From a virus: a stretch of 30,495 nucleotides of DNA. The stretch spans positions 1 to 30,495 of IMG/VR virus record IMGVR_UViG_3300021960_000332, one strand, 5' to 3'. The translations under genes were made by a program, and so were the position numbers. The first letter of the stretch is position 1; each line of letters starts with the position of its first letter. The notes under the pieces were generated by a model. The model was not told where the DNA came from and made no database searches. It saw nothing but the letters and a program-made list of their open reading frames with translations. Shown piece after piece: positions 1,648 through 30,495 of this stretch.

Positions 1648-2105
1648 ATGTCAATATCGTTTTTAACTGCCACATCGAAAGTACAAGCCCACCCAGCTAA
1701 AACATTTTCAAACCTTTCGTAAAACGGTTCGCAATTACCATCGCCCTCTAATTGATAGAGATTAGTATATAAGTCTCCTTTTCTTAAAACCATTACCAAG
1801 CGATTAAGCACAGCCAATTGAGTATTCAAAACATCTTGCTCGTTGTTGTTGCCTCTGAACAAATCGGTAGTTTCTTCTTTGCTTTGGTTTACTATATCCA
1901 TAGCCATTACCGTAATGTTAAACAACAAGACTTGTTCTTGTGACGTTACATTATTCACAATGATATGAGCCAAAGGGAATATGGTTTGCTTTGACAAATC
2001 TATTTCCGTAATATCGCCAGTCGTTACCGTGTTCGTGTTTACGTCATTCAATAACTGGTCTTTGATAGTTTCAGTCAATTGGTAAAATCCTCTAATCCCT
2101 TGCAT
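1638..2105 (-). CDS. Probable neck / tail terminator-type protein (155 aa)
   Basis: Start chosen at the ATG at 2105, which overlaps the TGA of the frameshifted chaperone reading frame (TGATG). The protein is 155 residues (MQGIRGFYQL...) and mostly alpha/beta in appearance, with a segment FPLAHIIVNNVTSQEQVLLF and a C-terminal cysteine-containing stretch near GWACTFDVAV. I cannot name the family with certainty. It lies between the tail assembly chaperone and the gp10-like gene, where many siphophages encode a tail terminator or neck protein, and its size fits. The role is inferred from context. Confidence 0.6.
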   Translation of the reverse strand: MQGIRGFYQLTETIKDQLLNDVNTNTVTTGDITEIDLSKQTIFPLAHIIVNNVTSQEQVLLFNITVMAMDIVNQSKEETTDLFRGNNNEQDVLNTQLAVLNRLVMVLRKGDLYTNLYQLEGDGNCEPFYERFENVLAGWACTFDVAVKNDIDICN

Positions 2106-2832
2106 CAAAATTTCTTTTTAATTTGTTTTGCTTCTAGTTCGTTTTTCTCTTTTTCAAATGTCAAGAATAACAGACATTCGTGCATTTTTAATTTAGTGAT
2201 ATGTTCAAATCGCCTAACATCCGATTGAGCGAGTGCATAGACGCTACTGTACCAACCCCATTTTCTTCCGAATTGAGATATCGCTGTAAGTTCGCCTCTT
2301 TCTTGTTCTGTGAATAAGTCAGAATAATTCTCGACAAGTCTTTCCCTAAACGATAAAAAAAAAGGATAGAACCTAGCACCGCATCCATTGGCATATCTTT
2401 CATAGGAGCAGCATCTTTAGCTTCGTAATCCTCAATAACATATTTCTCTCCGTACTTGCTTGTAACTGGTCTATAAAGAACTCCCATAGCTTTCTCCATA
2501 TTATCCCAATCGCCTATATAAGTGTCAAGGTCTATGTATTCTCCAAAAGACATTTCGTCCAAGCTAGGAATAAAACCGTACTCAACACCTTTCATTTTAA
2601 ACCTATGAATCAGCGATGGTGTATTCTCAAACATCGTAGCAATGACGTTTGCAATATCAGATATATCGGTAGCTTTTAACGCTCTAACTTGCTCCCTGTT
2701 TAATCCACAAAATATCTCAACCATTCTGATTGCCATTTCCATTTCGGGCAAATCAGCGACTTTCATATACTCTTGGTATTGACCGAGCGTGACCTCGTTC
2801 AAGTTATTCGGTACTATCAATTCAACTTTCAT
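2105..2832 (-). CDS. Tail assembly chaperone, -1 frameshift product (gpG-T-like, 242 aa)
   Basis: Predicted long form of the chaperone. Translation starts at 2832, reads the normal frame to Phe159 and slips back one base on a nine-T run (2355-2363). It then continues in a frame with no stop for 83 codons, ending in the TGA at 2107-2105. The extension contains FGRKWGWYSSVYALAQ and a charged, helical C-terminus (FEKEKNELEAKQIKKKF), which looks like real protein. The base count fits exactly: 725 nt for 242 codons with one base read twice. Long-tailed phages commonly make G and G-T chaperone forms this way to load the tape measure. The extended frame's stop overlaps the next gene's ATG by one base, as expected of a genuine gene end. 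Confidence 0.7.
2188..2832 (-). CDS. Tail assembly chaperone, zero-frame product (gpG-like, 214 aa)
   Basis: Unshifted product, 214 residues (MKVELIVPNN...). It is acidic and helical, with no catalytic motif. I read it as the short chaperone (gpG-like) that with the longer frameshifted form would coat the tape measure protein during tail assembly. The last 55 residues are encoded in a region that is also open in the -1 frame, so both frames are constrained there. It follows the large terminase gene after a 71-bp gap that holds the CTATATATAAGTATG element directly before the start codon. In many siphophages this gene is adjacent to the tape measure; here four genes intervene on the circular map. 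The identification rests mainly on the frameshift architecture. Confidence 0.7.
   Translation of the reverse strand: MKVELIVPNNLNEVTLGQYQEYMKVADLPEMEMAIRMVEIFCGLNREQVRALKATDISDIANVIATMFENTPSLIHRFKMKGVEYGFIPSLDEMSFGEYIDLDTYIGDWDNMEKAMGVLYRPVTSKYGEKYVIEDYEAKDAAPMKDMPMDAVLGSILFFYRLGKDLSRIILTYSQNKKEANLQRYLNSEENGVGTVASMHSLNRMLGDLNISLN
2355..2363 (-). other. Candidate -1 ribosomal frameshift site (T9)
   Basis: On the coding strand the chaperone reads ATC CTT TTT TTT TAT. The nine-T run allows both tRNAs to re-pair after a -1 slip, giving TTA TCG in place of TAT CGT. From there the -1 frame is open for 83 codons and ends exactly at the next gene. A sequencing homopolymer error is the main alternative, but both frames look protein-like and each ends cleanly near the gene junction. 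Confidence 0.65.
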
Positions 2833-2903: not shown

Positions 2904-4058
2904 CTATTGGATTGCGTACCTGCCGAAGTTTGGTTTGCTCAACACCGAGTAAGTGGCGTATCGGGTCGCATCAATTAAGTGGTTGTTTTTATCTACTGGC
3001 TTATTCATCAGTTTACCGCTTTTGTCCTCTTGCCATTTATAGTTCCTAAACTCTTGGATTGCGTTATGGCTGTCTTTGTGAATATATATCTTAAATCTTT
3101 TTAATAAGTCAATACCAGCGTTAACCGAATCAGCACCCTTTATACTTGGTCGTACATTCCAACCCATACGCCTAAGTTCTTCTATTAATCTTGGCTCTGC
3201 GCTATCGAAATATATCGGCTCTCTTGTTATACCAATCTGCTTCCACTTGTTGTGAATGTCAACGGTGGTCATTTGCGTTTGATATAAATGCTCTTTGATA
3301 TAAAGGTTGTAATCCTTTTTGTAAACGCTTACAAGTGTAGTCGGGTCGTTGGTATATCCAGCATCAGCACCGTAACTGACAAACTCTGCATCTTCGGGAA
3401 TTACGTTTGTCTCTGTGAAATTAAATATCGTTGCCTTGCTAATCCCTTTTTGTCCTAAACCGTATATCTGCCAATACTGCTCATCTGTATCTTTAAGGCG
3501 TTCTATTTCTGCTTTAATGCTTGGTTCAAGGAAAGGATTATCCAAATAAGTAGTAATATAAAAATCAGCATCGTCTCGGTCTTTTACTTTGTCATAAATC
3601 CAATGGTATTCATCGGATGGATTGTAGTCTAATATTATTTTGTCCTCTGTTCTAAATACAAGCTGTTGCCAGTCTTCAAAGTCTAATTCATTTGCTTCAT
3701 TAATGAATAGCAAGTTCCTTTTGCGTCCCCTTACCTTTTGTGGTTGGTCAAGGCTTATAAACTCAACAAGGTTTCCGCTAAGTTCATATTCGGAGTTCGA
3801 CTTGTTATGTAGTTCTTCGTCATACTTGTCGTGCTGTTTAAGTATGTCTAGAAAGTCTCGCATTACGGAAGCTCTTAATGCTGGGAATGTCTTACGGCAA
3901 ATGGTTATAGTCTTACCTTTATTAACTTGGCAATAATGAAAAATTATGTATAAAAGTATGTTGTAGGTTTTCCCGCTTCTCGTACCGCCCTGTTCAATTA
4001 CTATTTTAGATTCGCTATCTAGTAAGTGTTCAAAAACTACATTGACATTGACATCCAC
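2904..4058 (-). CDS. terL: Terminase large subunit (TerL, 384 aa)
   Basis: ATP-driven DNA packaging motor with C-terminal nuclease. Walker A is GGTRSGKT at residues 24-31. Walker B is LLFINEAN at about 116-123, with Glu121 as the likely catalytic carboxylate. The nuclease domain begins around GADAGYTNDPTTL (first Asp near residue 232), and the C-terminal NHLIDATRYA segment supplies another acidic residue. The 384-residue length is compact but complete for phage terminases. It follows the small subunit gene with a one-base overlap. TerL would act at the portal vertex of the prohead, although the portal gene lies about 16 kb away on this map, in the permuted structural module. Confidence 0.95.
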   Translation of the reverse strand: MDVNVNVVFEHLLDSESKIVIEQGGTRSGKTYNILLYIIFHYCQVNKGKTITICRKTFPALRASVMRDFLDILKQHDKYDEELHNKSNSEYELSGNLVEFISLDQPQKVRGRKRNLLFINEANELDFEDWQQLVFRTEDKIILDYNPSDEYHWIYDKVKDRDDADFYITTYLDNPFLEPSIKAEIERLKDTDEQYWQIYGLGQKGISKATIFNFTETNVIPEDAEFVSYGADAGYTNDPTTLVSVYKKDYNLYIKEHLYQTQMTTVDIHNKWKQIGITREPIYFDSAEPRLIEELRRMGWNVRPSIKGADSVNAGIDLLKRFKIYIHKDSHNAIQEFRNYKWQEDKSGKLMNKPVDKNNHLIDATRYATYSVLSKPNFGRYAIQ

Positions 4059-8290: not shown

Positions 8291-8310
8291 CAAATGTTTT
8301 TAATTTTTTT

Positions 8311-8772
8311 TTATTTTTTTTCGCTATTCTTGAAGTATTCGCTCCAAACCCCTTTATCTGTAAGGTCTATGTCATTTGGATTTATTATCGTGGCTTCTTG
8401 TTCTGTAAGTAAATAACAAGGCTTTAAGAGTTTTTTTTTAGTCCATAGCGTGGTATCGGGACAATACATATCAGTCGGGTCTGACATCTTTAAATTGTTT
8501 AGCCAATACATATAATTTGCTTTTGGGTCATTCACGAAATAGATAGCTACCTTTCCAGTAGCCATTAGTTTATCGTATTTGAATTGCTCCAGCAGTTTAG
8601 TGTCGTAGTATTTATTTCTAAACTTCATCTCGATAACGCATTCGTGTCCTTTTGGTGTCAAGCCTTGTGCATCCCAACTATCGTACCCCTCGCCTGTCCA
8701 TTCTAATTTCCAACCATCTAGGTTGAGTAATTGAACCGTTAACTTTTCTAACTTGTGTGTTTTATCCACCAT
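8311..8772 (-). CDS. PD-(D/E)XK nuclease-like protein (153 aa)
   Basis: Shows the restriction-endonuclease-like core: a conserved acidic residue in the GEGYDSWDAQGL segment, then CVIEMKFRN with the E-x-K pair, and a basic YKYD/K region after it. This layout fits Holliday-junction resolvases, VRR-NUC-like or other phage nucleases of the PD-(D/E)XK superfamily. The substrate is unknown. It overlaps the preceding 69-aa gene by 11 nt. A second protein of the same general type lies nearby at 9093-9488. Confidence 0.55.
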   Translation of the reverse strand: MVDKTHKLEKLTVQLLNLDGWKLEWTGEGYDSWDAQGLTPKGHECVIEMKFRNKYYDTKLLEQFKYDKLMATGKVAIYFVNDPKANYMYWLNNLKMSDPTDMYCPDTTLWTKKKLLKPCYLLTEQEATIINPNDIDLTDKGVWSEYFKNSEKK

Positions 8773-9096: not shown

Positions 9097-9488
9097 AAAT
9101 TTAATTTTTTAATATTCCATAATTTACTAAATCCTTTTAAACAATTCAAAAGTGTTATTGATTCTTTTGCTGGCTTCCAAGTTCCGTTCATATAAATAGA
9201 ATCAACATTGCATTGGTTTAAAGGTATATCTTTATCATCATTTTTAAAATCGTGAGTCACATATAAAACAACGCTTTTATCCGTATGCCAACTATTTGCA
9301 ATTCTTTCTAAAACTAGCTTTTGTCCTATTGGTATTTCATTATTCTTTCTTTTAACCTCCATTAATATCAAAACCTCATTATCAAACTCTAAAACAACAT
9401 CAATATCAGTAGGGTGTATTTTACCAGATTCAACTCCTGTAAAATCTATTGATTGCTTAACTTGTTTTGTGTTTCTTATTAAACTCAT
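9093..9488 (-). CDS. PD-(D/E)XK-type endonuclease, resolvase-like (131 aa)
   Basis: The core motif is clear: HPTDIDVVLEF (Asp in the first conserved strand) followed by VLILMEVKRKN with the E-x-K catalytic pair, then a helix GQKLVLERIAN. Such small proteins act as Holliday-junction resolvases, VRR-NUC-like nucleases or related DNA-trimming enzymes. Position between the sigma-like protein and small early genes suggests replication or recombination. Start chosen at the ATG overlapping the sigma-like gene's stop (ATGA). Confidence 0.65.
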   Translation of the reverse strand: MSLIRNTKQVKQSIDFTGVESGKIHPTDIDVVLEFDNEVLILMEVKRKNNEIPIGQKLVLERIANSWHTDKSVVLYVTHDFKNDDKDIPLNQCNVDSIYMNGTWKPAKESITLLNCLKGFSKLWNIKKLNL

Positions 9489-9982
9489 AAAAGTTTATTT
9501 TTAAGTTTGTTTTTTGTCGCTATAAAAGTATTTCTTAATGAATCGTAACTAATGTCTGTTCTTCTGCTTATTTCCGATATGTTATTGGTTATAGTAATGA
9601 GTTCAAAAATCTTTTTATCGTACCAATAAATATCCTCCATCGCAGCCTCATAAGCCTGTAAGTCCTTTTCAAAATTTTGCTCAAATTCAATGTAATCCTC
9701 ATCGTCTATTTCTAAATCAAATTCATCAATGTCTAACTTTGTAATCTTGTTTTCTCGTCTTAGATAAGCAACGTATAAGCCTCTAAGCATTTTAAACACA
9801 TACCAATGGTTTATCTCTTCATCGTTATACCATATATCTAAACCGTTTTGCTCATATCCTATAAGCATAATGTACATTTCCTGTACAATATCCTCAGCCA
9901 AGTATTCAGAACATCCAAACGACTTGACTATATTAATCCAGTCTTTGTGCTTTAAAGCCGCTGCATCAATTAGCTTTCCCAT
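9485..9982 (-). CDS. Sigma-factor-like (ECF-type) protein (165 aa)
   Basis: The layout matches a small sigma-70 family member. Residues about 10-80 resemble region 2 (SEYLAEDIVQEMYIMLIGYE, then WYVFKMLRGLYVAYLRREN). An acidic linker follows (DEFDLEIDDEDYIEFE). Residues about 134-162 form a region 4-like helix-turn-helix (NISEISRRTDISYDSLRNTF, then basic KNKLKNKLL). It would bind host RNA polymerase core and direct it to phage promoters, although many phage proteins of this kind are untested. It lies in the early operon next to the helicase, suitably placed to switch on late genes. Confidence 0.65.
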   Translation of the reverse strand: MGKLIDAAALKHKDWINIVKSFGCSEYLAEDIVQEMYIMLIGYEQNGLDIWYNDEEINHWYVFKMLRGLYVAYLRRENKITKLDIDEFDLEIDDEDYIEFEQNFEKDLQAYEAAMEDIYWYDKKIFELITITNNISEISRRTDISYDSLRNTFIATKNKLKNKLL

Positions 9983-24906: not shown

Positions 24907-26850
24907 TTAACCCCCTATCCCAGCTTCGGACTGAATGTTGCGTTGTAAACTTTGTGCGCTTGTTACGTCATTAGCCACTACATACGCTTGGACTGGTTGT
25001 TGTGTTTGGTCTCCTATAACTTGTGCCAATTGGTTTGTTCCCCCTTGACCAACTACATTGAACGCTGGTGGTTGTGATATTGCGCCCCCACTTGGACTTG
25101 ACGCACCGCCTGTTCCCCCACCGCCTTTTGCGTTTGGTATTTTTACAGAAATAATCTTTTTAACATTGCGTAAGCCATTTGTAAGAATAGCAGCAGCATT
25201 AACAAACTTCAAAGCTGTTTCAAATGGTGTTACTGTCGTTGCAGCTAAAGCATCAGAAACCCCTCTGTAAGTGTTTAAAGTCGCACTAGCTACCGCAAAC
25301 CCTTTTCCAGCGACCGTTGATTCCCCAGCTATATTTGACAATTGATTTAATGCGTTTTCCGTATCGTCTAAAGTTTTTATTTTAGCTTCTAGCGTAGCAT
25401 CGTCAATAGCCTTTTGAGCGTCTGCCGTTTCTTTTTTCAACCTAGTTTCTTCGGCTGCCCTTGCAATAGCTGCATCAGCATCTTGTGCGTAAAACTCATT
25501 CTGTTGAGCATCGTACGCATTTTTTTGAGCCTCCCTTAAAGCTAAAACGGTTTCAGATTCTTGTCCGTAATATTCTTCGGCTAATCTTATTTGCTCATCG
25601 TAGCTTTCTTTTATCTTTCTAAGTTCTTCGTTTCGCCTTTCATCTTCGGTGTCTATTAACGCTTGACGAATACTTTCTAAAGCAGCAGCTTTGTCCTTTT
25701 CTCTTTGGATAGCTTCGGCAGCAGCCTTATCCTCTAAAGCCTTTATTTCTGTATTTCTTTTTTCCCTTTGTTGTGGGCTTAAACTACCTTTCTCTAATCC
25801 CTTTTGAAGTTCAGCAATTTTGGTTTGTAAATCAGTAGCACTCCCCTCTAATTGTTCTGCTGTTTTTATAGCATCTTGACCGTTCTTAACTGTTGTTACA
25901 CCTTGTTCTGTTGCAAACTTAGCAGCACCATTAATCCCACTAAAGGCAGCGACCGTTGCATTCTTAATAGTATCCCACCAACCTGGCTCTAAACTTTCAT
26001 CCCCAGCAATTACTTTCGCTCTTGCTTCTGCAGCCTTTGCGTAAAGAACCTCTGACTGTGCTTTTAACCTTGTTACCTCAATAACGGTAGCAGCATTCTT
26101 AACCAATAAAGATTCAGCTTGTTCTAAACTTTCAGCATAGCCAACCGATTCTCCTAAGGCTTTGTTGTATTGTTGTAATGCTTCTTCTTTTGAAATAGTG
26201 CCTTTTTTTGCCAATTCAATGGTATCACCCATTTTTGTAATTTCGGCTTGTACTTTTGATACAGCAGAAAGAATTTCGGCTTGTGCTTCTTTATAGGCTT
26301 TTGATTCAGCAGTTGCCCCACTTACAGCTTTTGAAAGTTTATCCCAATTTGCAATTAACAAGCCAACACCCACAACCAAAGCACCTATCCCAGTAGCCAA
26401 AATTGCTTTTTGTATTCCGCTCAATCCTCCAATAAAACCTCCAATCGCTTTTTTAGATTCGCCAAACCCTTTATAAAGTTTTACTATTTTGGTTGCGTAA
26501 CCATCTGTAACCTTGTCTAAGGCTGCTATAATTTTACTACTTTTTACGCTTTCTTCTCCGTAAGATTGTGTTTCAGAAATAGCTGTTCTTCTTTCAGAAT
26601 TTAATTCTCTAAGACCTAACTTTTCATTTTGTATTTCTGTTTTTAAAAATTCCGACCTTTCTTTTAATTGTTTTTGAGCTTGTAGGTCTGTCTTTGCTGT
26701 TTGCTTTCTTACTTCCTCAACTTTTAAAAGTTCTTTCTCTAAGTCAATTAATACTTGTCTTTGTATTTCAAGCTGCTCATTTAGGTCTTGTATGTTTTGT
26801 TTACTTTGACCTAGACTTGCATTTATTTCTATTGTTTTGACTATCGCCAT
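24907..26850 (-). CDS. Tape measure protein (647 aa)
   Basis: Long coiled-coil protein that sets tail length. The N-terminal coiled coil (QNIQDLNEQLEIQRQVLIDL...) is followed by a hydrophobic/glycine-rich segment GIQKAILATGIGALVVGVGL (about residues 145-165), as in other tape measures. Long charged helices follow, and the C-terminus is Gly/Gln-rich. At the usual about 0.15 nm per residue it would correspond to a tail of roughly 100 nm. A 46-aa gene overlaps its start by 10 nt. Downstream are the protease and capsid genes, not further tail genes. Confidence 0.88.
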   Translation of the reverse strand: MAIVKTIEINASLGQSKQNIQDLNEQLEIQRQVLIDLEKELLKVEEVRKQTAKTDLQAQKQLKERSEFLKTEIQNEKLGLRELNSERRTAISETQSYGEESVKSSKIIAALDKVTDGYATKIVKLYKGFGESKKAIGGFIGGLSGIQKAILATGIGALVVGVGLLIANWDKLSKAVSGATAESKAYKEAQAEILSAVSKVQAEITKMGDTIELAKKGTISKEEALQQYNKALGESVGYAESLEQAESLLVKNAATVIEVTRLKAQSEVLYAKAAEARAKVIAGDESLEPGWWDTIKNATVAAFSGINGAAKFATEQGVTTVKNGQDAIKTAEQLEGSATDLQTKIAELQKGLEKGSLSPQQREKRNTEIKALEDKAAAEAIQREKDKAAALESIRQALIDTEDERRNEELRKIKESYDEQIRLAEEYYGQESETVLALREAQKNAYDAQQNEFYAQDADAAIARAAEETRLKKETADAQKAIDDATLEAKIKTLDDTENALNQLSNIAGESTVAGKGFAVASATLNTYRGVSDALAATTVTPFETALKFVNAAAILTNGLRNVKKIISVKIPNAKGGGGTGGASSPSGGAISQPPAFNVVGQGGTNQLAQVIGDQTQQPVQAYVVANDVTSAQSLQRNIQSEAGIGG

Positions 26851-26981: not shown

Positions 26982-29038
26982 TAAAACACATTTAATAGTT
27001 CGATGTCGCTTTTGCCAGTCAGTAGGTTTGTTTTAATACTGTTTATTTTATACTCAATATTATTAATCACAAACGTATCATTCAGTTTAAAATTAATCAA
27101 TATGCTTTGTGGCAGATATGCTGTTACCGTTGTCATTCTATTGCTTTGGTTAAATATAGAAGCAATGTAATTACGATGATAGTTTTGGAATAAACTTTGG
27201 TTGTTTACCGCTAAAGCATATTCATCTTGTTCAGCAAAGAAATTAATAGTTTGTGAAGTCGTATCGCCTAACCTACTATTAAGCGGTAAGAAATAATCGT
27301 TTATCGAAGTGACTGCTGTTGGCACTCCATTGCCATCTACTATATTCACATAGTTTATGTTCGTTCCGTTTGCATTATATCTCAAATAAAACAAATAAGG
27401 CGCACCGATATATGGTTGTTGGTTGTCATCTACCGAGTAACCCCATTGAACACTAATTGGTGCTGGTGTTGATAATCCAATGTCAAAAAGTCTTTCAAAT
27501 TTAAAATGCTCAAAAGGCGTCTCATAGTTAAAAATCTCACCCGAAAATCTTGTATTTGAATCGCCTCTGTATTCAATAGTTCCCCATTCCTTACCAATCA
27601 ATTGGGTGTGGACATTTGACAAATAAGATTTTGTGCCTTTATATCTATATATAACTTCCCTGTAAGGTAATGCGACATTAACCTCGCTTGAATCTACTTC
27701 AACGTATTTTGATATGTCGTAAGTGTTTCCAGTAGCGTAATAACTGTCTAAGGTCTTGCAAACGATTAAACCGTTCTCAATATAAGCTACTAAATTAAAC
27801 ATCTTAAACAACCCCGACACAAAGTCAATCACTTTCATTTCGGGTATCTGCTGTCTAATTAAAAACTGAACTGCACCAGTACTTGACAAAACTCCCGAAC
27901 TTATTGTAGTAATTGACGGAAAACCGTTTAATAATCCTTGAACATAAAAAGTTACATTCGTAAAAGTAATCGCTTGTGAAATATGTAAAACAACCGAATA
28001 AATATCATTCTGCGCAAAAACCCAAGTCGGTTGCTGTGTTCCAATAACATTAGAAGCAGTTATAAACTCAATACCATTTTTGAAAATAGTATATCCGTAA
28101 GGTATGGTTGAACTCCCAGCATCGGGCGCAAATGTTACTCTCGCACCATCGGGGGTGTATGGTTGTAGATTTGAACCAATTGTGATATTTGTTCCATCGC
28201 AAGAAACTTCGCCTGTTCTAACTGGGAATGTAACTTGCAAGTCTTGTGCTTCAATTTGTGCTGGTGCTTCTATGCTTCCTTTTTTTCTATGCAGCCACAT
28301 ATACAAATCGTAAAATTCGGGCGTAGAACCGCTAAAAAAATCTAGGCTAAAATTGATGCCATACTGTTCCTCAATTGCTCTAAGAATAATTGGTAAACGA
28401 ATAGCGTATTTTAATTCGTTGTATTTTACCCCTTGCAATCCCGAAGCATATAAATTTCCGTCAAGCTGACCACTCAAAGCACTATTGTAATAAAGCCTTT
28501 GACTGTGAGTAATCAATGGCACTTGTATTGGATTGTCATAAAAAACGCCTCCAACAGTTCTGTCAACCTCTGTTGTTAAATAAGTTTTTAAATCCGTATC
28601 GTTATAAGTCAAGAAACCCCCTGCATCTTTTTCGTTGAAATTATCTAGCCAAGTCAACGCACTTAGTTTATCCTCACCGAATAAGTTTTTAAGGCTTAAC
28701 GTGTTTCCGAAAAAAGTAATCTTATAGGTATGCGCTTTATTGTCTTTTAAATTTACACCCTCTAGTTTGATGTAGCCTTTTTGAAACGGTATGTAGTTCA
28801 GTTCAATTTCAGCTTCCACTCTTGCTCTTGCATCAAACCCTCCAACAATATCAAAATTGTAATAGTGTTTGAATATCTTGTTATTTGTCGGACTTGCTGG
28901 CAAATTGAAAGTTTGAGTAAACTCTGTAAAGACTTGACTAATATCTTTCGTGTTCTTAATGGTTTGCGTAATAGACACGCTTTCATCATTGAACATATCG
29001 ACTTGCGTTCCTTGTATGTATAGCTGAATAATTTGCAT
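26981..29038 (-). CDS. Large tail / baseplate protein (685 aa)
   Basis: Begins MQIIQLYIQGTQVDMFNDES and contains TEFTQTFNLPASPTNNKIFK, a pattern I associate with a large tail protein common in Bacteroidota siphophages. The remainder is strand-rich with many aromatic residues, e.g. YDLYMWLHRKKGSIEAPAQI and FNYETPFEHFKFERLFDIG. There is no membrane segment or catalytic motif. It shares a TAATG junction with the 365-aa tail gene upstream and with the 46-aa gene downstream. A distal-tail or baseplate hub function is likely from the position before the tape measure. Confidence 0.75.
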   Translation of the reverse strand: MQIIQLYIQGTQVDMFNDESVSITQTIKNTKDISQVFTEFTQTFNLPASPTNNKIFKHYYNFDIVGGFDARARVEAEIELNYIPFQKGYIKLEGVNLKDNKAHTYKITFFGNTLSLKNLFGEDKLSALTWLDNFNEKDAGGFLTYNDTDLKTYLTTEVDRTVGGVFYDNPIQVPLITHSQRLYYNSALSGQLDGNLYASGLQGVKYNELKYAIRLPIILRAIEEQYGINFSLDFFSGSTPEFYDLYMWLHRKKGSIEAPAQIEAQDLQVTFPVRTGEVSCDGTNITIGSNLQPYTPDGARVTFAPDAGSSTIPYGYTIFKNGIEFITASNVIGTQQPTWVFAQNDIYSVVLHISQAITFTNVTFYVQGLLNGFPSITTISSGVLSSTGAVQFLIRQQIPEMKVIDFVSGLFKMFNLVAYIENGLIVCKTLDSYYATGNTYDISKYVEVDSSEVNVALPYREVIYRYKGTKSYLSNVHTQLIGKEWGTIEYRGDSNTRFSGEIFNYETPFEHFKFERLFDIGLSTPAPISVQWGYSVDDNQQPYIGAPYLFYLRYNANGTNINYVNIVDGNGVPTAVTSINDYFLPLNSRLGDTTSQTINFFAEQDEYALAVNNQSLFQNYHRNYIASIFNQSNRMTTVTAYLPQSILINFKLNDTFVINNIEYKINSIKTNLLTGKSDIELLNVF

Positions 29039-30135
29039 TATCTGATATCGTTTATCGCATTGTAAGCGTATGAAAGGTCAATGGTGTAATCTACTAACTT
29101 GTCATTTACGCTTGTCTTGAATGTAAGGCTATTGGCATCAACTGTCATTGGTGTAACAACGCTGTCAATCTCCATCCACACTTGCTCCGATTGTATAAGT
29201 TCTTGCATTGGCTCGTTATACTGCTCACTTACATATCCAGTATTAATGGTTATCTTTTTAGACGATTTAATGTTATATGTTTTCTTCGGATGCACCAAAG
29301 TATTATATTCTCCTTTTCCATCAATTACAGCTCGTTTATATTGTTCTTTTGAAGCGTTTAAAGTTTCAATTGACTTCTTGAAGAACCAAAGGTCTTGCAA
29401 CGCACCCCATCTGTTTATGAAGCTAAGTTTGACTGGCGTAAATTTGCATTCGTCTATTGTTATTACTTTGACAATTCTCAAGCCATCAGTAGTCGCAATA
29501 TGTATTTCATCAACTGGGAATGTTTCGTTTTCATCTAAAAATTCAGATATACAAACATTGTCCTCATAGGTTCCACCAGCTGTGATAACCCTATCTTTGA
29601 AGCTGTCGTAAGGTTCTCCCGAATCAGATATTACTGTAAAAACACGAGTGACACTTGGCGTTACTGTAAAGGATTTGGTTATTTGACCTTCGTACAAATA
29701 AGCCACACTTGTAGTGTTGTTTCTATCTACTTGAATGCGAATGTCTGAATCAGCTAAACGATATATGACATCGTTGCTTTGCATATATCCTCTTGTTGTT
29801 GTTGGATTGCTTCCATCCTCAAAATAGCCATAGGCATCAATTCCGAAATGAGTGACAGTACCGCTTGACAACGAAGTCCCAGTTCCGTTCAAGCCATTAT
29901 ACCAATTCCAAATCAAACGAACATTAATGTTTTGACTTTTTTCATCATTGTAATAAATGTCTAGGTAATCTCTTATAAGTTCTGAAACCTCAAACAAAGC
30001 ATCTGCGCTTGTGTTTTTTATAAGTGTGTATCTTAATACCGTATCAATTTCAATTTCTAATTTTATAGATAATGCACCTACTGGATTAGTATTTTGATAA
30101 AAATAAAATGGACTTCTTAGAAATATGTTAGCCAT
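29038..30135 (-). CDS. Tail structural protein, haplotype B (365 aa)
   Basis: Second allele of the protein at 32-1129; 344 of 365 residues agree. The copy here is in its natural context, joined by TAATG to the 685-aa tail gene. Differences cluster at residues 64-71, 157-186 and 273-279, e.g. ASF (162-164) replaced by VTR and SYDP (276-279) by EYNT. The C-terminal 76 residues are identical. Both alleles are intact, which argues against degeneration and for allelic variation among co-occurring phages. Confidence 0.75.
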   Translation of the reverse strand: MANIFLRSPFYFYQNTNPVGALSIKLEIEIDTVLRYTLIKNTSADALFEVSELIRDYLDIYYNDEKSQNINVRLIWNWYNGLNGTGTSLSSGTVTHFGIDAYGYFEDGSNPTTTRGYMQSNDVIYRLADSDIRIQVDRNNTTSVAYLYEGQITKSFTVTPSVTRVFTVISDSGEPYDSFKDRVITAGGTYEDNVCISEFLDENETFPVDEIHIATTDGLRIVKVITIDECKFTPVKLSFINRWGALQDLWFFKKSIETLNASKEQYKRAVIDGKGEYNTLVHPKKTYNIKSSKKITINTGYVSEQYNEPMQELIQSEQVWMEIDSVVTPMTVDANSLTFKTSVNDKLVDYTIDLSYAYNAINDIR

Positions 30136-30495
30136 TATCTTGTTGCTTTATTGTTAATCGTTGTCTTTAAAAAATTTTCTACATCTAGTCCGTATGCTTC
30201 TACAATATCGTTTGGCAAATTCTTAAACGCTTCCTCAAACGGTTTGGTAAAAAACAAACTCGGTTTAATACCTTTTTTGAATATGCTTTTTGCAATAGCA
30301 AACTGTAATCCTTTTCTACTTACAAATCTACCCGAAGCATCTCTAGTTCCTTTTAACCCTTTACGAACAACCCATTGACTGAACGCACTCGGTGGCGGCA
30401 TTTTGTTAGTGTACTTGTATGGTGTATTATATTTAACTTCTGTTCCGCTTACCCCTTTATCTTGATACTCGCCATAGTTCTCCATTAGGAACGCC
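30135..30495 (-). CDS. gp10-like tail completion protein, haplotype B, truncated by window edge
   Basis: C-terminal part (about 120 residues) of a second allele of the protein at 1129-1647. The 5' end lies beyond the window. In the visible part it differs at three residues (A/E after PFE, D/N in LPxD, M/V in GLDxEN). The N-terminus must be read from the left copy. Confidence 0.7.
   Translation of the reverse strand, partial: AFLMENYGEYQDKGVSGTEVKYNTPYKYTNKMPPPSAFSQWVVRKGLKGTRDASGRFVSRKGLQFAIAKSIFKKGIKPSLFFTKPFEEAFKNLPNDIVEAYGLDVENFLKTTINNKATR

Follow-up and report, generated by a model that had tools for sequence, protein, structure and literature searches.

The synthesis of two tail assembly chaperones in phage tails is a textbook scheme, in which the change of reading frame is described as ribosomal. 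The slip sequence of phage lambda is G GGA AAG. In dnaX, the change is ribosomal in E. coli and transcriptional in Thermus. The lambda G and GT products have a common N-terminal part and are encoded in a virion-assembly gene cluster; a -1 change shortly before the first frame ends adds a C-terminal extension encoded in the overlap (PMC5009743).

Two protein lengths per gene are also obtained from A or T homopolymers within the coding regions of Shigella mxiE, spa13, spa33 and mxiA and of tssM (PMC5009743; PMC4256274). Slippage was measured at 15-55% in the Shigella genes and at about 20-25% in tssM1, and the authors of the tssM study likened it to lambda G/GT (PMC4256274). In many bacterial genomes, selection against A/T runs begins at a length of nine (Baranov et al. 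2005, PMC1088944). Ribosomally shifted chaperone pairs are known, as is transcriptional slippage in bacteria; a literature search of papers available without subscription found none on slippage in phage tail genes and none that joins the two.

The locus described here was found in a 30,495-nt viral sequence, referred to below as the window. Like lambda G/GT, it combines a common N-terminal part with a -1 extension. Unlike lambda, its slip sequence is not a mixed heptamer but a T run of nine or longer, its gene follows the terminase gene, the overlap is long (about 57 codons), and neither a Pfam match nor a conserved RNA structure was found. It resembles the Shigella and tssM genes in its homopolymer; those are bacterial secretion genes with measured slippage, whereas here a structural-module gene conserved in hundreds of phages is concerned and slippage is putative. 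The closest cultured counterparts are gp38/gp39 of Nonlabens phages P12024S and P12024L (JQ823122, JQ823123), which show about 31% identity and likewise follow the terminase gene.

Gene organization in the window

The features of the locus, all on the minus strand, are as follows.

1638-2105, minus: next gene, 155 aa; its ATG (2103-2105) has one base in common with the extension stop (TGATG)
2105-2356, minus: -1 frame extension, 83 aa, with an F..KWGWY motif; TGA at 2105-2107
2105-2832, minus: predicted long form, 242 aa, through a frame change at the T9 run; coding part 2108-2832 (725 nt)
2188-2832, minus: short form in frame 0, 214 aa; stop at 2188-2190; matches phrog_32199 (E 6e-18)
2191-2416, minus: zone open in both frames, 226 nt, of which 2191-2356 would be coded twice after the slip
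2355-2363, minus: T9 run at codons 157-160, which appears as A9 on the plus strand; the slip site reads C TTT TTT TTT A
2904-4058, minus: terminase large subunit, directly upstream; Pfam Terminase_3 and 3C
24907-26850, minus: putative tape measure protein, recognized by eye from a coiled coil and a hydrophobic stretch

Codons 157-160 read CTT TTT TTT TAT in frame 0, so that the nine Ts reach from the last two bases of codon 157 to the first base of codon 160. The two forms would share about 159 residues. The open stretch of the -1 frame starts at about 2416, and the extension (LSFRERL...FGRKWGWYSSVYALA...KKKF) carries the motif as FGRKWGWY. For the window's protein, the predicted junction peptides are DMPMDAVLGSILFFYR in the short form and DMPMDAVLGSILFFLSFR in the long form, the latter reading ...ILFFLSFR across the junction. 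An earlier note on this sequence had described the 214-aa frame with its T9 run, the 83-aa extension, a 242-aa product over 725 nt and a TGA overlapping the next ATG by one base; all of these are exact. It had also set the interval coded in two frames at 2188-2356, where the dual coding itself is borne out and the limits are to be replaced by those given above.

Some further properties of the window are recorded here. Its ends, 1-1489 and 29007-30495, are 94% identical along 1489 bases, with 90 mismatches and without gaps, so that genes are duplicated with amino-acid differences; perhaps a circular assembly brought together two strain variants at its ends. Plus-strand T9 runs at 8431-8439 and 8304-8312 are A9 on the coding strand and fall inside and at the end of a 153-aa ORF (8311-8772). 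The ORF at 9485-9982 looks by eye like a small sigma-like protein, and in the Nonlabens relative a gene annotated as Sigma-70 region 2 lies ahead of the terminase gene.

Relatives of the gene

Related loci were gathered by scanning viral contigs four times and genome contigs once, and phage P12024S was added. Because the peptide patterns searched for lie outside the T run, the run itself was not selected for. In total, 326 loci were gathered and 324 resolved; of these 324, 322 have the extension in the -1 frame, none in the +1 frame and two in frame. The frame-0 tail is about 54-68 codons long in most relatives, and in most contexts the nearest ATG is within a few bases of the extension's stop. 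A stop in the +1 frame 3-11 codons past the run (322/322 loci) was set aside as evidence; it is probably forced by the Phe-Arg and Leu-Gly dual coding. The profile phrog_32199 matches 51 of 52 family members; it has 175 positions, carries no functional label and does not include the -1 extension.

In the two exceptions, L011 (T11) and L167 (T10), the long form is encoded in one frame, while the short-form frame is open for 59 and 86 codons, respectively. The fused T11 run of L011 could be an assembly error. L167 lies in the same Dysgonomonas genome as a shifted T9 relative (L169), which offers a natural comparison for the mechanism. The gene occurs in 28 of 101 genomes of the bacterial family to which this genome belongs, and among cellular genomes (G001, G780-G809, G864) it is far commoner in that family than in samples of the order and class; these frequent copies may be widespread prophages or tail remnants. 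The 33 contexts from cellular genomes, a few of which repeat earlier loci, comprise 31 T9 and two T10 runs, mostly in the register N(C/G/A)T TTT TTT TT(G/A).

The two Nonlabens phages were the only cultured relatives found. In P12024S, the T9 run of gp38 and the -1 frame give one long product (JQ823122 23136-23830), which the annotation presents as two hypothetical proteins, gp38 and gp39; the frame-0 tail is shorter here (about 27 codons).

Length and register of the T run

The loci yielded 239 distinct sequence contexts around the run: 198 with T9, 37 with T10, two with T12, two with T8 and none with T7. The run thus reaches nine Ts or more in 237 of the 239 contexts, and all 239 have U UUU UUU as an in-register heptamer. 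The Ts outside the heptamer (before, after) occur as (1,1), (1,2), (0,2), (2,1) and (2,0), giving registers such as CTT TTT TTT TAT, GAT TTT TTT TTG, GTC TTT TTT TTT CTG and ATA TTT TTT TTT TGG. Fewer Ts on one flank go with more on the other. When flanks were shuffled among contexts, taken as independent with their relatedness ignored, a mean of 16 runs fell below nine and the minimum in 100,000 shuffles was 8, against the 2 observed. Mapped on a tree, the two flanks changed at least 14 and 17 times, and only two of these changes end below nine; the tree yields only three to five independent pairs, too few for a sign test and of no significance by itself.

A length rule picked out 1120 further ORFs in these loci, 874 kb in all, and none of them contains a T run of nine or more. 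In-frame T TTT TTT occurs there in 54 runs of length 7 and four of length 8, and A runs of at least nine do occur (18). At the site, TTT is used for both Phe codons in 239/239 contexts; in the upstream part of the gene, TTC makes up 26% of Phe codons. No conserved RNA structure was detected beside the site, with a mean fold z of about 0 on both sides (downstream 0.10 over 70 nt and -0.02 over 120 nt; 142 and 141 sequences).

Dual coding

Column entropy was compared over 40 unique sequences that share one geometry. Its values for positions 1/2/3 of frame-0 codons were 0.48/0.33/1.00 upstream of the run, 0.41/0.62/0.57 in the dual zone and 0.20/0.61/0.34 past the frame-0 stop, where frame-0 position 2 is position 3 of the -1 frame. 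These values indicate that the extension evolves as protein and that the dual zone is constrained in both frames. When synonymous codons were resampled with the -1 protein fixed, frame 0 remained as open as observed with a mean probability of 0.097 over 141 representatives; about 0.5 is expected without selection. In predicted structures, for which the short form and the extension were folded separately, the prediction is confident for the shared domain and for the extension's second half, and the frame-0 tail is mostly below pLDDT 60. The comparison of relatives that the earlier note had proposed found the T run conserved and the doubly coded zone under constraint. The contrary outcomes it had named (homologues without the run or with stops in the -1 frame, or a run length making a single frame) did not occur, with the exception of the two T10/T11 relatives that fuse the frames.

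Putative function of the gene pair

In our judgement, the gene pair probably encodes tail assembly chaperones, since this best accounts for the G/GT-like architecture, the gene neighbourhood and a few weak fold matches. Of the 279 loci with a match, 277 have the terminase large subunit upstream on the same strand. The gene is followed by a conserved series of genes, which we read from their place as morphogenesis genes. Lambda-type chaperone genes lie between those for the major tail protein and the tape measure. In the window, the gene stands directly after TerL, the putative tape measure gene is several genes downstream, the identity of the tail tube gene is not certain, and the classical arrangement with the tape measure gene coming next was not seen. 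The gene at 1638-2105 is perhaps a tail terminator, judging by position. The putative tape measure protein matches only phrog_32985, to which no function is assigned.

Pfam gave no match above cut-off for the window's protein, and Pfam and PDB fold searches with the short form and the extension returned nothing significant. A viral fold search gave weak matches to Tail assembly chaperone ctCpR1 (E 0.01, prob 0.99, TM 0.35) and to a tail assembly protein of Paenibacillus phage Wanderer (E 0.14), and the fold comparison matched many unnamed phage proteins. A weak match to phrog_166 ('tail protein') was dropped, as it covers residues 12-69 only and is also obtained with E. coli and Synechococcus controls. 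The chaperone label of the earlier note is plausible but putative, given the missing Pfam and PDB matches, the weakness of the fold matches and a position after the terminase gene instead of next to the tape measure gene.

Mechanism of the frame change

Homopolymers are prone to error, and the arrangement might be a chance overlap or an assembly error in which a single gene was broken or fused. Against this, many metagenomes, cellular genomes and the two cultured phages supply 322 loci with one and the same architecture, which bears the signature of dual coding; the relatives already refute this explanation, whose probability we consider negligible. A sequencing slip at the T9 run itself is unlikely because eight near-identical contigs (L002-L009), from eight differently numbered metagenomes, all carry T9 in a 69-nt context without mismatch. 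Replicative phase variation, in which the genomic T tract would gain or lose bases and toggle the long form, could draw on the T10 and T11 relatives with fused frames. It is very improbable, given that 322 of 324 loci share one unfused phase, that the nine near-identical contigs (window included) are all T9 and that both frames are constrained. Separate translation of the extension through re-initiation, without fusion, might use the ATG, GTG or TTG codons found ahead of the motif in the open -1 frame in 97 of 230 contexts. ATG is missing there in 213 of the 230, though, the window has none of the three codons, and the T run would be left without a role, which makes this route exceedingly improbable. 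With no start codon ahead of the motif in the window and ATG lacking there in most contexts, the extension is hardly reachable other than through a change of frame.

The earlier note had proposed a programmed -1 frameshift. A conserved frame change with two C-terminal variants is upheld by the 322 loci; the ribosomal route is less supported, because what is constrained is a T run of nine or longer, beyond the heptamer, and no conserved stimulatory 3' structure, a common though not obligatory companion of -1 ribosomal sites, accompanies it. A purely ribosomal shift, by tandem tRNA-Phe slippage on U UUU UUU as in lambda G/GT, has in its favour a heptamer of the X XXY YYZ type in register in every context and the documented -1 ribosomal route for tail assembly chaperones (PMC5009743). 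As such a shift needs only the in-register heptamer, it leaves unexplained why the run exceeds the heptamer, which elsewhere in these loci occurs in runs of 7-8, and accounts neither for the compensation between flanks nor for the absence of TTC. We regard it as rather unlikely. Transcriptional slippage is favoured because the run of about nine or more is conserved in 237 of the 239 contexts and nine is the threshold published for many bacteria (PMC1088944). The open short-form frames of L011 and L167 make sense if any such run gives transcripts of mixed length, and little sense for a one-way ribosomal shift. Counterpoints to a polymerase mechanism are the heptamer at every -1 site, the two T8 contexts and the relatedness of the sites; U UUU UUG/A is a further option in the register of the Dysgonomonas group, and part of the flanking Ts could be held by hydrophobic residues wanted in both frames.

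Taken together, the change of frame is probably programmed through slippage of RNA polymerase on the T run, with a possible ribosomal contribution. On the run, RNA polymerase would let the U-tract realign, which would leave some mRNAs with one U more or two fewer; ribosomes translating these in the usual way would pass into the -1 frame and produce the long form. Messages lacking one U would run into a stop a few codons further on, so that only the shared domain is made. The ribosome may contribute to the long form by slipping -1 on U UUU UUU. The 242-aa product would thereby acquire a helical, Trp-rich C-terminal domain, following the G/GT logic of phage lambda.

Implications for the phage lineage

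The long form is missed by annotations in the family, and the cultured phage P12024S carries it as two unlinked hypothetical proteins. On balance, we lean towards the view that polymerase slippage on runs of nine or more Ts determines, throughout a widespread lineage of Bacteroidota phages, in what ratio the two tail-assembly chaperones are made, and that it replaces the ribosomal frameshift on which other tailed phages rely. If this is true, the chaperone ratio would depend on the polymerase that transcribes the gene, and selection on homopolymer length in this family would represent a second, transcription-level solution to the same ratio problem, in parallel with dnaX.
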